Positions 26,756-37,837 of a stretch of DNA of 38,069 bases are shown here, piece by piece. Every line of letters starts with the position of its first letter. Position 1 is the stretch's first letter. A program made the position numbers and the translations under genes. The notes beneath the pieces were generated by a model. The model did not search any database and had not been told where the DNA came from. It saw only the letters and a list, made by a program, of their open reading frames with translations. This DNA is from a virus. The stretch spans positions 1 through 38,069 of IMG/VR virus record IMGVR_UViG_3300049215_000117; one strand, written 5' to 3'.

Positions 26756-26967
26756 GGCTCCATCCCCGGGTCGTAGCGGCGGAACTCGGGCGGGACGCCT
26801 TTGCCGCGGATGTCGCGGGCGCAGGCTGGGAGCCACTGGCCGGTGCGGCTGGGGTTCTCGGGTCCGAACCAGCGCCAGCCGACCGAGGGCGCGTCGCAGT
26901 GGCCGCAGTCGCACGAGCGGCCGTCGGCAGGCTCGGGCGGCTCGACCGGCGGCAGTCGGCGGCTCAT
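26752..26967 (-). CDS. Small Cys-rich protein, 71 aa
   Basis: ATG at 26967, overlapping the initiator stop by four bases. Contains S-C-D-C-G-H-C-D-A-P-S-V-G-W-R-W-F-G and later P-A-C-A-R-D, giving four Cys and a His in zinc-knuckle spacing. No family recognised; one of several such proteins in the early operon. Confidence 0.6.
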   Translation of the reverse strand: MSRRLPPVEPPEPADGRSCDCGHCDAPSVGWRWFGPENPSRTGQWLPACARDIRGKGVPPEFRRYDPGMEP

Positions 26968-27842
26968 GTCGACCCCTTCCGAGCCCTGGCAGCGGCGACG
27001 GCGGCCCGGCCGCGTGCTGCCCGGTCGGCGGCGTCGGGGTCGTGGTCGCAGAGGACGCGGCCGACGTAGCCGTTGTCGTCGCAGAGGTCGCAGCCGGCGA
27101 CGGCGATGGCGCGGGCCTGGGCCTGGCGCTCCAGCGCGGTGGTGTGCGCCCGCTTGGCGACGGCGGTCCGCTCGGCCTGCCACGCCTCACGGGTCCGGCG
27201 GGCCTCGGCGCATCCGCCGCAGGGCGGCGGGTTGTCGTCGTCTCGGTGCTTGGGGCATCGGGTGGGGGGCTCGTCGACACGCGCGTCTACTTCAGTTACT
27301 ACCCCCCCTAAAGAACCACTAGAAGAAGACACAGACACAGACACAGACACGTCTGGATTCCGGTCGGATTCCTGTTGGACGGCGGATGGATTCCGGCTGG
27401 AGTCCGGTCGGACGTTTGGCCGGTTGACCTGCGATGTCCCGTTTGGACGTCCATTCTGGTCGTCCGTTCCCGCCGAAACGGGGGGAAGATCAACAGGGTC
27501 TCTTAGTTTGGGAGATACCGCTTTTCTCGCGGCGCGCTTCCGCTCGGCGTCGGCCTTACGGTTGGCCTCGATGCGGGCCTTGGTCAGGTTCCGCGCCTCC
27601 CACTGATGGAAGACGTAGCCACCCTTCCTTCGCCTCCACAACCCTCGGCTCACCAGTTCGTCAGCGACTTGGGCGCTCGACCGTAGGGTGTGCGCGAGCA
27701 CGTCCTCGGAGACGAAGCCGTCAGTGGACTTCGCCGCGGAGAACGAGCCGGCGCGCACCCAGAGCGAGAACGCAGCGTCGGACATCCCGGTGACTTTCGG
27801 GTGGTCGTAGAAGTCGGGGTCAACCTGGAATCGAACGGGCAT
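26964..27842 (-). CDS. Replication initiator / helicase-loader-like protein
   Basis: 292 residues, ATG at 27842 overlapping the upstream stop (TGATG). N-terminal ~100 residues form a winged-helix domain (V-D-P-D-F-Y-D-H-P-K-V, A-A-F-S-L-W-V-R-A, L-R-S-S-A-Q-V-A-D-E-L-V, G-Y-V-F-H-Q-W) typical of phage replisome organisers. A polar linker (~105-175) is followed by a Cys-containing region (R-C-P-K-H, P-P-C-G-G-C, C-D-L-C-D-D-N-G-Y-V). The linker-coding DNA carries six 11-bp repeats and a lower-GC segment (27285-27420), as when a phage origin lies within its initiator gene. It would recruit the host helicase. Confidence 0.7.
   Translation of the reverse strand: MPVRFQVDPDFYDHPKVTGMSDAAFSLWVRAGSFSAAKSTDGFVSEDVLAHTLRSSAQVADELVSRGLWRRRKGGYVFHQWEARNLTKARIEANRKADAERKRAARKAVSPKLRDPVDLPPVSAGTDDQNGRPNGTSQVNRPNVRPDSSRNPSAVQQESDRNPDVSVSVSVSSSSGSLGGVVTEVDARVDEPPTRCPKHRDDDNPPPCGGCAEARRTREAWQAERTAVAKRAHTTALERQAQARAIAVAGCDLCDDNGYVGRVLCDHDPDAADRAARGRAAVAAARARKGST
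27285..27420. other. Candidate replication origin: 11-bp iterons plus low-GC segment
   Basis: Six consecutive 11-bp units start at 27355, 27366, 27377, 27388, 27399 and 27410, each beginning GGA. Units 1, 2, 4 and 5 follow GGAKTCCKGYY (GGATTCCGGTC, GGATTCCTGTT, GGATTCCGGCT, GGAGTCCGGTC). The 11-bp period is not a multiple of three, so it does not come from amino-acid repetition. Beside it, 27285-27350 is visibly poorer in GC than the rest of the window and includes a short (acagac) repeat. Iterons next to an unwinding region inside the initiator gene is the lambda-type origin layout. No binding data. Confidence 0.6.
27328..27350. repeat. Hexanucleotide repeat (gacaca)n and adjacent C7 run
   Basis: Almost four copies of gacaca, encoding Val-Ser repeats on the minus strand in the initiator linker. 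A seven-C run lies 20 bases to the left (about 27302-27308). Both are slippage-prone; six-base changes would keep frame, one-base changes in the C run would not. Confidence 0.8.
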
Positions 27843-28170: not shown

Positions 28171-28887
28171 TCAGGCTGCGGCGAGGATCGGTCGGCCGAT
28201 GTGCTCGGCGACCTGGGGGACGACGGCATTGCCGAGGGCACGACGTCGGTCCACCCCGGCGGGAACTCCATAAGCCACTCGATCCACTCGGGGTTCACGG
28301 GCCCACCAACCGCGTCGCTCAGGTCCACGCCCGTCTGCGAGCCCGCCAGGCGGCGGTGCAGCGCCTCCTCGGACAGGCCGCCACGGGCACTGTCCTTGGT
28401 TTTCGTTGTGGGCCAGAACGAACAGACGGCGGCGTGGGTGTGGCGCACCCAATGCACAAGCGGAGGCGTCTCCGGTGCGGACTCGGTAGCCGGCGGATTC
28501 GAGGTCGTGGTGAACATCGGCAAGTCCGCGCCGGTGCAGACCGGGCACGTTCTCGACGATGACCCAGGTCGGTCGGACGTCGAGGACGACGGTGAGCATC
28601 GATCCCCAGAGCCATCGTTCGTCGTCCTGCGCCAGTTTGAGACCCGCGTCGCTGACCGGCTGACAGGGTGGACCTCCAGCGACAACGTCAACGGCAGGTC
28701 GGGGCTGGGACTGCCACCATTCGACGGCCGTTCGGACGTCGTCATGCCGCGGCACCTCCGGCCAGTGTCGAGCCAGCACGCGCCGGCAGTACTTGTCGCT
28801 CTCCACCTGGCCGACGACGGTCATGCCGGCGCGTTCGAGGCCGAGGTCGAGGCCACCGATGCCGGAGAACAGCGACAGGACGTTCAT
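28171..28887 (-). CDS. dcm: C5-cytosine DNA methyltransferase
   Basis: 238 residues from ATG 28887. Motif I L-F-S-G-I-G-G-L-D-L-G-L-E-R-A-G (SAM binding), motif IV G-G-P-P-C-Q-P-V-S with nucleophile Cys75, motif VI V-E-N-V-P-G, motif VIII P-H-P-R-R-R-L-F-V, motif X R-A-L-G-N-A-V-V-P-Q-V-A-E. Target-recognition region (~165-210) is very short, so the enzyme is small for the family but has all core motifs. No restriction nuclease is adjacent; an orphan phage enzyme protecting DNA from host restriction is the simplest role. Gene symbol indicates family only. Confidence 0.92.
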   Translation of the reverse strand: MNVLSLFSGIGGLDLGLERAGMTVVGQVESDKYCRRVLARHWPEVPRHDDVRTAVEWWQSQPRPAVDVVAGGPPCQPVSDAGLKLAQDDERWLWGSMLTVVLDVRPTWVIVENVPGLHRRGLADVHHDLESAGYRVRTGDASACALGAPHPRRRLFVLAHNENQGQCPWRPVRGGAAPPPGGLADGRGPERRGWWAREPRVDRVAYGVPAGVDRRRALGNAVVPQVAEHIGRPILAAA

Positions 28888-29060
28888 GCCCTCACCTCGA
28901 TGCCGGTGCCGCGCAGGAGCCGCTTCGCCTCGGCGAGCCAGTCCTCTTGGTCCTGATGGGAGAGGTCGCGCCAGGGCCGGTCGAGGTTGTGGCGGTCGCG
29001 CAGCTTCTCGGCGATGCGGTGCAGGTGCGTGTAGTTGACGACGGGGCGGCCGGCGGTCAT
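28884..29060 (-). CDS. Hypothetical protein, 58 aa
   Basis: Overlaps both neighbours by four bases. Helical and charged: Y-T-H-L-H-R-I-A-E-K-L-R-D-R-H and S-H-Q-D-Q-E-D-W-L-A-E-A-K-R-L-L. No family recognised. Just upstream of, and coupled to, the methyltransferase. Confidence 0.6.
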   Translation of the reverse strand: MTAGRPVVNYTHLHRIAEKLRDRHNLDRPWRDLSHQDQEDWLAEAKRLLRGTGIEVRA

Positions 29061-29284
29061 GACCCACCGAGCCGATCCCGCTTGTCGCGGTGCCGCTGGA
29101 CGACGTCGACGAGCAGCTCCAGCTCCTCGGCGTGCCCCTCGCTGCCGGCCCCCTCGTGTGCGGGCCCGTCGTCGCGGTGACGGCCCTGCGGCTTGCGGTG
29201 TTGACCGCGCGCCGGGAGCAGGTAGAAGAGGAGCAGACCGCCAGCGCACAGGCCGGTGAGCACGACCACGGTGATGCCGATCAT
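29057..29284 (-). CDS. Single-pass membrane protein, 75 aa
   Basis: Hydrophobic residues 3-23 (I-T-V-V-V-L-T-G-L-C-A-G-G-L-L-L-F-Y-L-L) with no leading charges, then a highly charged tail (Q-H-R-K-P-Q-G-R-H-R-D-D, later E-E-L-E-L-L-V-D-V-V-Q-R-H-R-D-K-R). An N-out/C-in membrane anchor with helical cytoplasmic tail. Overlaps the 32-residue membrane peptide gene upstream (ATGA). Confidence 0.6.
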   Translation of the reverse strand: MIGITVVVLTGLCAGGLLLFYLLPARGQHRKPQGRHRDDGPAHEGAGSEGHAEELELLVDVVQRHRDKRDRLGGS

Positions 29285-29379
29285 TGCTTACCCCCATCGG
29301 TGAAGTGGCGGACGATCTCGACGACGCCGCCGATGAGTAGGCCGCCGAGGATCAGCATGGCGGGCAGGAGGTCAAGCAC
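29281..29379 (-). CDS. Membrane micropeptide, 32 aa
   Basis: GTG at 29379 overlaps the 3' end of the preceding gene by eight bases, with GAGGTG ten bases upstream; stop overlaps the next ATG (ATGA). Sequence is almost wholly hydrophobic (L-P-A-M-L-I-L-G-G-L-L-I-G-G-V-V-E-I-V) with a polar end. Start at the internal ATG 29358 is possible. Chain-coupled to the next membrane protein, so both may act together. Confidence 0.5.
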   Translation of the reverse strand: MLDLLPAMLILGGLLIGGVVEIVRHFTDGGKQ

Positions 29380-30928
29380 AGGTGCTCATCACCTCGACGA
29401 GCTCGCCGCAGTCGCCGAACAACGACTTCCAGGCCATCCGGTAGCCAGGGCTGTTGCTCCGCTGCCAGCCGCCGGCAGGGTGTCGCGTCCACGTGGGACC
29501 GCCCGGCTTCCTGTCGGGCAGGCCGACGACAGTGCCGACCTCGGGTTCGGGGCTGTGCGCATAGAAGCGGCGCGGCTCGGCCGGCTTGGCGATCTCATGC
29601 GGCCAGGTCGCACCCTGATCGGGGTCCTCATGCAGGCCCCAGTGACCAGCAGCGCGCTGGCACCGCAGTTCGGAGTAGTCCCCGTTCCCCACGCCGCAGA
29701 CGGGCTCGGCGTCGCCGGCGACCCAGCGGCGCGGCTCGGCTGCCGCGTCGAAGTCGAGGGTTTGCTGGGCGATGAGCTCGAGCCTGCGCCGCAGGTCGTC
29801 CCGCTCGGCCTCGACGCGCTTCGATCGAAGCTGCCAGTACTCCGTGGAGAGCTTCGCGCGTGCCCCGTCCAACGCCTGACGCAGGCGGTCCCGCTCGGAG
29901 CGGGCCTCGTCCCGCTCTCCGCGCCTCTGGTCCAACTCGAACAGGTAGCGCTCAACCGCCGATCGCACGGCCTCCTGCTGCTGGGCGGGGACGCCAACAA
30001 GCTCGGCGATCTCCTCGAATCGCGCCCGCAGCCGGGTCACCTCGGCGGCGGCGAGCTCCCACTCCTCGCGAGTCTCGTTGCGCTCGTTGGTGGCCTTGAT
30101 GGCCTGCTCGTTGGCCCGTTCCATGTCGGCCTTGACGGTGGCGTTCTCCGCGCCGAGGCGAACACACTCGGCGCGGTACTCCGCAGAGGTGCTCGCGATG
30201 CAGTTGATCAGCGTCCGCACATGGGCGATCGTGACCTCAGGGAGACCGCACGGACCGTTGTCCTCGATCGCGTGTAGCTCGTCGGCCAGGCCGCGGAGCT
30301 CGGCGTCGCGCGGGTCGGGCTCGCCGAACACGTTGAGGAGCTGCTGACCGAGCGAGGCCAGCTGTTCCTTGGTCGTGCGCCGGCTGGTGACGCCCGCGCG
30401 CTGGTCGGCGTCCGAGGTGGACACGCACACGTAGTGCTCGCCCTTGACGTGGTCGTAGGCGAAGGACACCTTGCACCCAAATGACAGATCCCAGCCGATG
30501 CCGTCGACGCGCATGGCCTCGACATCCTCGTCCCACTCCATCTCAATGCCAGGCTCGCTATGGACCGGCTTCCGCTCGACGGCCTGGATCTGGACGTCGG
30601 CCGGGATGAGGCCGGCGGCCACGAGCCCCTGACGGAACTGCCAGAGCGGAACCGCGCGGAAGCTGTCGACAACCGCGTCACGGATGGCATTGAGCGCGAG
30701 CGTGAACACGGACGGCACCTCGATGTGCCCCTTGGTGCCGACCTTGGCCGTGGTCGTCTCGGCGTAGCTCAGCTCGACGTCGCCGCTATCGAGCCGGACG
30801 GCCTGCGAGAAGTCGACATTCCGCTTGGCCTGGAAGGTCTTGGCGACCTCCAGCAGGTCGGCGGCCGAGGGCTCGACGATGGTGTGGGCCATGTCCTCAA
30901 GATGCTCGGCGAACTGGGCCTGAGACAT
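29372..30928 (-). pseudogene. DUF2303-like fragment fused to coiled coil and Cys/His tail
   Basis: 518 codons from an internal ATG that lacks a ribosome-binding site; in-frame codons extend 31 positions further upstream (G-W-R-D-H-R, W-E-R-W-N-K-F) and continue the DUF2303 protein whose start lies in the neighbouring frame. Residues ~1-80 (F-A-E-H-L-E-D, E-P-S-A-A-D-L-L-E-V-A-K-T-F, V-P-S-V-F-T-L-A-L) are typical DUF2303. Beyond that I do not recognise the usual ending; instead comes an unrelated segment, a long coiled coil (~225-375) and a C-x(n)-C-x4-G-H-x2-H motif (R-C-Q-R-A-A-G-H-W-G-L-H) found in actinophage zinc-like proteins. Probably a gene fusion as well as a frameshift. Confidence 0.65.
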
Positions 30929-31340
30929 GAGCGTGGCGTTGAACTTGTTCCACCGCTCCCAGTCGGCGTCGCCGCGCAGCTGCAGGCGGACGCGGTGGTC
31001 GCGCCAGCCGGCGGTCTGGTGCTGCGTGGTCGTTGAGCACCGCGGTCACGCGGCTCTGGTCGACGTCGGCCCACACGGTGGTGTGGCCGGGCGTCATGAG
31101 CCGGTTGACGTAGGCGGCGAAGTGCTTGTGGTCGTGCAGGACGACCTCGCCGCGCGGGGCGAGCGGCGCGGCCAGGTGGTGCTCCAGCGACTCGACGGTG
31201 AGCTTCTCGTCGTGGCGGACGCGGACGACGACGAGCGGGTCAGCGGCCGAGGAGAGCGGGAAGGGCTCGACCAAGGTCGAGACGCGGCCGAGCGCGGCGG
31301 CGGACTCCGTGTCGGTGCGGTGCTGCGGTGCGTCGGTCAC
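30897..31340 (-). pseudogene. DUF2303 N-terminal part, frameshifted near 31022
   Basis: GTG at 31340 follows AAGGAG and overlaps the previous stop. The first ~105 codons are DUF2303 (T-E-S-A-A-A-L-G-R, V-V-L-H-D-H-K-H-F-A-A-Y-V-N, T-V-W-A-D-V, V-T-A-V-L-N-D-H). At about 31022 one extra base throws the frame: the true continuation (H-Q-T-A-G-W-R-D-H) lies one frame over and leads into the 29372-30928 frame, while this frame degrades into Arg/Pro-rich residues. Frameshift mutation, assembly error and programmed +1 shift are possible in decreasing order. DUF2303 proteins usually sit beside phage recombination genes, as here. Confidence 0.75.
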
Positions 31341-36946: not shown

Positions 36947-37837
36947 TCACAAGTCCCCAAGGTTCAGGCGATGCGCCTCGTCCGTCGCGCGCGTCTGCTT
37001 CGTGAACTCGGTGTAGCGCTTGAGCATGTCGAGACTCTCCCAGCCGGCGACCGCCATCAGCCCCACCTCGCTGCCGCCCGCGGCAAGCCACCGGGTTGCG
37101 CCCGTGTGTCGTAGCCGGTGCGGGTGAAAGTCCTCGATACCCGCGGCCTCGGCGCGAGCCATCAGCGCCTTGTACAGCGCGACGTACGCGAAGCCCTTGC
37201 CGCCGCCGCCGAGCCAGAACGTGTCCGTGTTGGCCAGGCGGTGCTTCTTGCGGGCCCGCAGGTAGCGGTCCAGGGCGACCGCGGTCTGCGGCCCGAACGG
37301 CAGGATCCGCGGCTTGTGCCCCTTGCCGATGACCGTGGCCGTGCCGCCCCGGATGTTCGTGCCGCTCACGGTCATGGTCAGCGTGTCGTTGGCGCGGCCG
37401 GCCGTCTCGGCCATCAGGCGGGTCAAGGCGGCGTCGCGGACGTCGACGAAGCGCGTGCCCTGGCAGGCCGCGAACAGGGCGCGCAGCTGCTCCTCGTCGA
37501 GCGGCTTCAGCGGCTGAACGTGGATCTTCGGCTTGGCCATGCCGGCGAGCTCGTCGACGTCCAGTTCGCCCTCCTTGTGCAGCCAGGCCGAGAACAGCTT
37601 CAGCGCTGTGACGCGACTCGCCGCCGTGCTGCCCTCCATGCCCCCGGCGATGAGGCTCGCGACGTACTCGGTGACCTGCTTCTCGCTCAGCGTCGGTGCG
37701 ACGCCGGCCGCCTCACACCAGGCGAGGTACATCCGCACGCCGGTGCCATAGGTTCGGATCGTGTGCCGGCTCAGCGCGCGGGCCGTGAGGTGCAGCGTCC
37801 ACGACTCCAGCAGCTCAGGCAGGTCGGCGGCGTCCAT
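36947..37837 (-). CDS. int: Tyrosine-family integrase
   Basis: 296 residues. N-terminal SAM-like core-binding domain (L-S-R-H-T-I-R-T-Y-G-T-G-V-R-M-Y-L-A-W, residues ~10-105), catalytic domain from ~112. Active-site residues: Arg148 (A-G-R-A-N-D-T-L), Lys172 (G-K-G-H-K), His240 and Arg243 (H-R-L-R-H-T-G-A-T), Trp266 (V-A-G-W-E-S) and nucleophile Tyr275 (K-R-Y-T-E-F). XerC/D-like in size, without an extended arm-binding domain. Catalyses recombination of phage and bacterial attachment sites; the phage site lies just upstream. Confidence 0.93.
   Translation of the reverse strand: MDAADLPELLESWTLHLTARALSRHTIRTYGTGVRMYLAWCEAAGVAPTLSEKQVTEYVASLIAGGMEGSTAASRVTALKLFSAWLHKEGELDVDELAGMAKPKIHVQPLKPLDEEQLRALFAACQGTRFVDVRDAALTRLMAETAGRANDTLTMTVSGTNIRGGTATVIGKGHKPRILPFGPQTAVALDRYLRARKKHRLANTDTFWLGGGGKGFAYVALYKALMARAEAAGIEDFHPHRLRHTGATRWLAAGGSEVGLMAVAGWESLDMLKRYTEFTKQTRATDEAHRLNLGDL

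Follow-up and report, generated by a model that had tools for sequence, protein, structure and literature searches.

A replication initiator gene in the virus record IMGVR_UViG_3300049215_000117 contains short repeats that follow one another at a step of 11 bp. Do these repeats only reflect the encoded protein, or do they act as DNA, and could they be the place where copying of the phage genome starts? We analyzed the whole stretch of this record, 38,069 nt long, which is called the window below.

Repeat Array in the Initiator Gene

Six GGA triplets occur at positions 27355, 27366, 27377, 27388, 27399 and 27410 of the window (array 27355–27420), with a spacing of exactly 11 bp. The repeat word is the dyad GGANTCC with a 4-bp spacer. 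The following elements were distinguished:

27355–27361, plus strand: iteron GGATTCC, unit GGATTCCGGTC, pattern match
27366–27372, plus strand: iteron GGATTCC, unit GGATTCCTGTT, pattern match
27377–27383, plus strand: degenerate iteron GGACGGC, unit GGACGGCGGAT, in register
27388–27394, plus strand: iteron GGATTCC, unit GGATTCCGGCT, pattern match
27399–27405, plus strand: iteron GGAGTCC, unit GGAGTCCGGTC, pattern match
27410–27418, plus strand: half-site GGACGTTTG (coding strand CAAACGTCC), unit GGACGTTTGGC, in register
27424–27432, minus strand: GCAGGTCAA, found repeatedly in close relatives a short distance upstream of the iterons

The initial annotation described GGA every 11 bp over 66 bp and four units of the form GGAKTCCKGYY. 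Both statements are accurate: exactly four units of the array fit this pattern with zero mismatches, and there is no other such site in the 38-kb window. Its count of six iterons holds only in part, as four units are good, whereas the unit at 27377 is degenerate and that at 27410 is a half-site sharing only GGA with the other units. In relatives, the place of this half-site is often occupied by WTTGTCCG (the TTGTCCG half-site). When the DNA beside the iterons was inspected for a DnaA box, only the partial TTGTCCG element was found, and it can also be read as an iteron half-site. The recurrence of GCAGGTCAA near the iterons may have a protein-level cause (Gln-Val).

TRF assigned the array a period of 11 and 5.4 copies. 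The self-match of the array at lag 11 is 30/44, and the runner-up lag-11 window in the 38 kb reaches 23. Over lags 7–25 not divisible by 3, the array again has the top score in the 38 kb, the next best being 27. We shuffled the synonymous codons of the initiator gene so that the protein was preserved. None of 5000 shuffles reached the lag-11 score of the array, and none of 1000 reached its score across all lags not divisible by 3. Since such shuffles never reproduce the score, the 11-bp period is not attributable to protein coding, as had initially been argued. A blastn search with the array gave only chance-level matches. GC-skew, which had been suggested as a check, shows no turn at the array and is uninformative for the start of replication.

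Initiator Protein

The gene that contains the array and the parts of its product are as follows:

26964–27842 (stop codon included), minus strand: replication initiator gene, 292 aa, assigned by PHROG 2447 and tblastn
27504–27842, minus strand: N-terminal winged-helix domain, residues 1–113 (AlphaFold pLDDT about 93–95)
27288–27467, minus strand: disordered linker, residues 126–185 (AlphaFold pLDDT under 50 for nearly all)
26973–27257, minus strand: C-terminal helical domain containing cysteines (AlphaFold), also found in other phages

The whole protein matches the PHROG 2447 profile "replication initiation protein" (E 2.3e-54, residues 5–288). Pfam and NCBIfam gave no match for the initiator, and a PDB sequence search with the profile of its family gave none either. 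Using tblastn, we found relatives in 332 phage records, with hosts among Gordonia, Mycobacterium, Streptomyces, Microbacterium, Propionibacterium, Arthrobacter, Rhodococcus and others. The N-terminal domain, a putative iteron binder, aligns with the model of a phage "replisome organizer" at TM 0.88 and 22% identity. The C-terminal domain, also present in other phages with unrelated N-terminal domains, may serve in replisome recruitment. The iteron array codes for approximately residues 141–163. It thus lies within the linker, which the initial annotation had correctly called unstructured: pLDDT is under 50 over nearly all of residues 126–185, and the winged-helix and helical domains flank this segment.

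Conservation in Close Relatives

The set of close relatives included 20 sequences: the window itself, virus contigs and loci in Amycolatopsis genomes, one pair being nearly identical. The linkers of this set contain 70 GGANTCC sites, whereas synonymous shuffling predicts 11.5 (maximum 21 in 500). Pairs of sites exactly 11 bp apart number 43, compared to 1.1 under the same null (maximum 6). Between consecutive sites, the spacing is 11 bp in 43 cases, 12 bp in three, 22 bp in three and 35 bp in one. Outside the initiator gene, the density of GGANTCC is 0.15 per kb. Related initiators with equal linkers and no 11-bp periodicity would have contradicted the initial annotation. The relatives did not contradict it: 18 of the 20 carry at least one pair at 11 bp in the corresponding linker.

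It had also proposed to examine whether the period is kept in relatives, and it is kept regardless of the codon frame. GGANTCC falls into the three frames 13, 28 and 29 times and is read as Gly-Ile/Val, Glu/Asp-Ser or Arg-Asn/Thr-Pro. Therefore, the linker peptides cycle through three types of motif. While the spacer bases diverge between close relatives, GGANTCC itself persists.

Hexamers and Unstable DNA beside the Iterons

Next to the iterons, the window contains further elements:

27327–27350, minus strand: hexamer array (GTGTCT)x4, one 4-bp iteron spacer past the last iteron
27286–27336, no strand assigned: candidate DNA-unwinding element, ranking second among the least stable 50-bp stretches of the window (z +4.5)
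27475–27525, no strand assigned: further unstable stretch, flanking the iterons on the opposite side, the sixth least stable 50 bp (z +3.5)
27264–27308, minus strand: G7 and C6 tracts that could pair with a 32-nt loop, of uncertain function

The candidate unwinding element overlaps the GTGTCT hexamers and adjoins the iterons. An unstable stretch and a short tandem array beside iterons are as expected of an origin. In close relatives, TCT makes up 86 of the 97 Ser codons in xSxS tracts, compared to 4.6% of the Ser codons in other open reading frames of the window. In other groups of relatives, the place of the hexamers is taken by 5-bp arrays (CCCGA, CCCAA, CCCTT, CCCAT, CCCGT). We compared 34 representatives whose initiators share less than 60% identity over the N-terminal domain. 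Tandems with a 5-bp unit and a length of at least 15 bp were present in 13 of the 34 linkers, compared to one in 121 kb of surrounding DNA used as a control. In 23 of the 34, it was the linker that contained the 50 bp of lowest stability in the gene, with about a third expected. As a family-wide element, the hairpin of the G and C tracts was rejected, being found in 6 of the 34 with a synonymous null of 2.9 (maximum 8), which is not significant.

Several other features were seen near the short tandem arrays of relatives. A GTTACGT box, often GGTTACGTNAGTA, lies past the array in L085, L086, L087, L015, L081, L083, L091, L100 and L103. It spans different codon frames and different N-terminal domains, and its density is 0.165 per kb in the box-bearing initiator genes versus 0.009 in the background; the window has only a diverged form. 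Linkers with CCCGA, CCCAA or CCCGT arrays (for example, those of L094, L085 and L088) have GGGTCGGGTCGGG... on the complementary strand. This could form a G-quadruplex beside the iterons and is absent from the GTGTCT array of the window. Tight hairpins with stems of 8–12 bp follow the short tandem array in L058, L059, L062, L067, L077, L080, L089 and L092. Several have loops of the CTAACG or TTCG type, and such hairpins occur in many relatives without GGANTCC.

Repeat Words in Distant Relatives

In distant relatives, the linkers carry other words, and several of them keep a step of 11 or 12 bp. In L036, ATGRCAA occurs at 366, 376, 387, 398, 409 and 420. In Streptomyces phage Raleigh, GCGAW occurs at 382, 393, 404, 415, 427, 436 and 447. 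The lag-11 score was above all 300 synonymous shuffles in L036, Raleigh, L035 and L040. The words of further groups are GTGANTCAC, GTGGAC/GTCCAC, GTAAC/GTTAC, GAACG/CGTTC and CTAGCAC, often at a 12-bp step. As 12 is a multiple of three, the 12-bp arrays alone do not prove a constraint at the DNA level; therefore, we put weight on the 11-bp cases, the use of codon frames and the turnover of words. In the synonymous-shuffle test, about half of the distant relatives gave no significant period except multiples of 3. Thus, the 11-bp rule is firm for the group of the window and some others, not for all relatives.

The phages William, Gambino, Wizard, Tortellini, Obliviate and Whack, as well as prophiT49-1, have an unrelated N-terminal domain, the same C-terminal domain and other arrays; in Whack, this is AACCCTTC at 12 bp. 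Because the unrelated N-terminal domains carry arrays of their own, the DNA-binding domain and the repeats appear to change together. Judging by the sequences, an N-terminal domain and its repeats may thus be exchanged together, as one unit. In some relatives, GTAAC/GTTAC clusters twice per gene, in an insertion of the N-terminal domain and in the linker (L046:2001-2951; L039, L041, L043–L045). Both clusters of L046 have identical internal spacing (12, 8, 16).

Alternative Explanations of the Array

The array could be an operator, at which the initiator or another DNA-binding protein of the phage controls the early genes at the level of transcription or expression, with replication starting elsewhere. 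Helically phased dyads suit cooperative repressors too. We nevertheless consider this unlikely. The array is deep within the gene rather than at a promoter, short tandem arrays and a stretch prone to melting accompany it, and initiators that differ in the N-terminal domain also differ in their words. Autoregulation could still accompany origin function.

It is quite improbable that the array is a partition (centromere-like), packaging or other DNA site located in the initiator gene by chance. Such a site has a precedent in mycobacteriophage RedRock, where direct repeats of an 8-bp motif form parS (PMC7157519). However, the window encodes an integrase, ParA/ParB were not found among the open reading frames tested, and the repeats accompany the initiator gene in phages whose neighboring genes differ. 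Least probable of all is an origin of the repeats from microsatellite slippage or from protein-level selection for low complexity of the linker. The disorder of the linker and the slippage-prone look of the GTGTCT and CCCGA arrays would fit this, but synonymous shuffling never reproduced the array, GGANTCC occupies all three frames and outlasts its spacers, and the preference for TCT in the xSxS tracts is not that of the other frames of the window.

Comparison with Known Replication Systems

The iterons of phage lambda are longer than the 11-bp GGANTCC unit of the window. The lambda ori lies in the middle of gene O, an AT-rich unwinding region adjoins its iterons, and extra iterons lengthen the protein (PMC7466680). 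The window has the same arrangement, with the repeats in the middle of the initiator gene and a candidate unwinding region beside them. The neighbor of the iterons is different, since the lambda unwinding region is AT-rich and here, in a GC-rich phage, the GTGTCT or pentamer array takes this place. No sequence relation between the two systems was detected. Thus, the comparison with lambda O made in the initial annotation was apt, and RepA of plasmid pSK41 is an equally good analogue (PMC5703833).

The N-terminal winged helix of pSK41 RepA binds Rep boxes located centrally in rep (PMC5703833). In the RepA_N plasmids pSK41 and pTZ2162, the origin codes for a linker that is dispensable as protein, the C-terminal domain contacts the replication machinery, and there is a known chimeric initiator in which the N-terminal domain is a different one (PMC5703833). 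For the most part, iterons of the RepA_N type are direct repeats that are semi-palindromic (PMC7145576). The likeness to pSK41 is that the iterons occupy the linker-coding segment between the DNA-binding and C-terminal domains; the iteron unit and the second array of the window are not like those of RepA_N replicons. When the fold of the N-terminal domain was compared with that of pSK41 and pTZ2162 RepA, Z was 6.4–7.2 and rmsd 3.2–3.6 over about 80 residues; these scores are tied with those of unrelated winged helices, and the Foldseek E is about 0.2. By profile, the initiator does not belong to RepA_N (PF06970): neither the window protein nor 30 aligned members gave a match to the Pfam profile at E up to 1.

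In phage SPP1, the phage-coded replisome organizer G38P binds the origin (oriL) and thereby brings about loading of the helicase (PMC5615212). Similarly, phage Blett has its genes in the order initiator, loader, helicase. However, G38P has a further site of action, oriR, a counterpart of which was not seen here, and no sequence match of the window initiator to G38P was seen.

An actinophage initiator, RepA of Miko/Jeeves, has been proven necessary and sufficient for plasmid replication; its origin is suspected within or beside repA, where the authors did not find repeats (PMC7157519). We examined Miko repA and found no strong 11-bp array. Homology of the window initiator to Miko RepA was rejected. 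The best profile E is 0.01, over 37 residues of a single target, and tblastn with Miko RepA retrieved only nine Mycobacterium phage records, none from the family of the window initiator. The shared label "RepA-like" therefore provides no experimental backing for the window initiator. By analogy, the Miko work supports no more than the general notion that initiator genes may contain the origins of actinophages.

Proposed Origin and Its Mechanism

Lambda ori with gene O and RepA_N plasmids such as pSK41 have this layout; therefore, we propose that the array is a phage replication origin placed in the DNA that codes for the linker of the phage's own initiator. Because this layout recurs in related actinobacterial phages despite the changed words, the array is very probably the start of phage DNA copying. 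The initial annotation had also interpreted it as a phage origin, and the conservation of the 11-bp step, the word turnover and the unstable neighbor with its tandem array support this.

Apparently, the N-terminal winged-helix domain would bind the GGANTCC dyads. At an 11-bp phasing, all dyads are on one side of the helix, so that bound initiators could contact each other, bind cooperatively and form a compact nucleoprotein complex. The resulting strain would open the adjacent unstable stretch 27286–27336, possibly assisted by single-strand binding to the GTGTCT hexamers. The C-terminal domain may then help to bring in the replicative helicase, which is phage-coded in some relatives and is probably that of the host in the window phage.

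A wider reading is also conceivable, and we put it forward tentatively, with somewhat less than even confidence. A broad superfamily of actinobacterial phages would share one modular origin in coding DNA, with swappable winged-helix domains that have their own 11–12-bp words. The 5–6-bp array would be a new element for unwinding or single-strand loading that replaces the AT-rich one in GC-rich genomes.

In the open-access literature that we searched, we found neither a published description of this origin nor a mapped origin for the phages bearing these initiators. Hundreds of actinobacterial phages (of Gordonia, Mycobacterium, Streptomyces, Microbacterium, Arthrobacter and Propionibacterium) carry relatives of the initiator, often annotated as hypothetical. 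The sequence rule, 11–12-bp repeats in the linker and then a 5–6-bp array, predicts the origin for many of these phages together. With this rule, one can test how iterons are recognized and how origins melt in GC-rich phages; the rule may also provide new replicons for actinobacterial genetics.

Genome Setting

The phage probably has an Amycolatopsis-like host, given that some close relatives of the initiator are found at loci of Amycolatopsis genomes. Among its other genes, the window has those for a C5 methyltransferase, RecT, an exonuclease, a portal, a tape-measure protein and an integrase (36947–37837). Neither a helicase nor a helicase loader was recognized among the tested neighbors of the initiator gene. 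In Blett, the order is initiator, helicase loader, DnaB-like helicase and SSB, and in Dardanus it is initiator, helicase and SSB; both orders fit the origin reading.

A DNA methyltransferase gene is located close upstream of the initiator in the window (28171–29067) and likewise in L081, L083, L086, L087, L088, L090, L092, L098 and L102. Two overlapping frames of the window on the minus strand, 29372–30928 and 30897–31340, match different parts of DUF2303/PHROG 210, which suggests a frameshift, either in the gene or by sequencing error.
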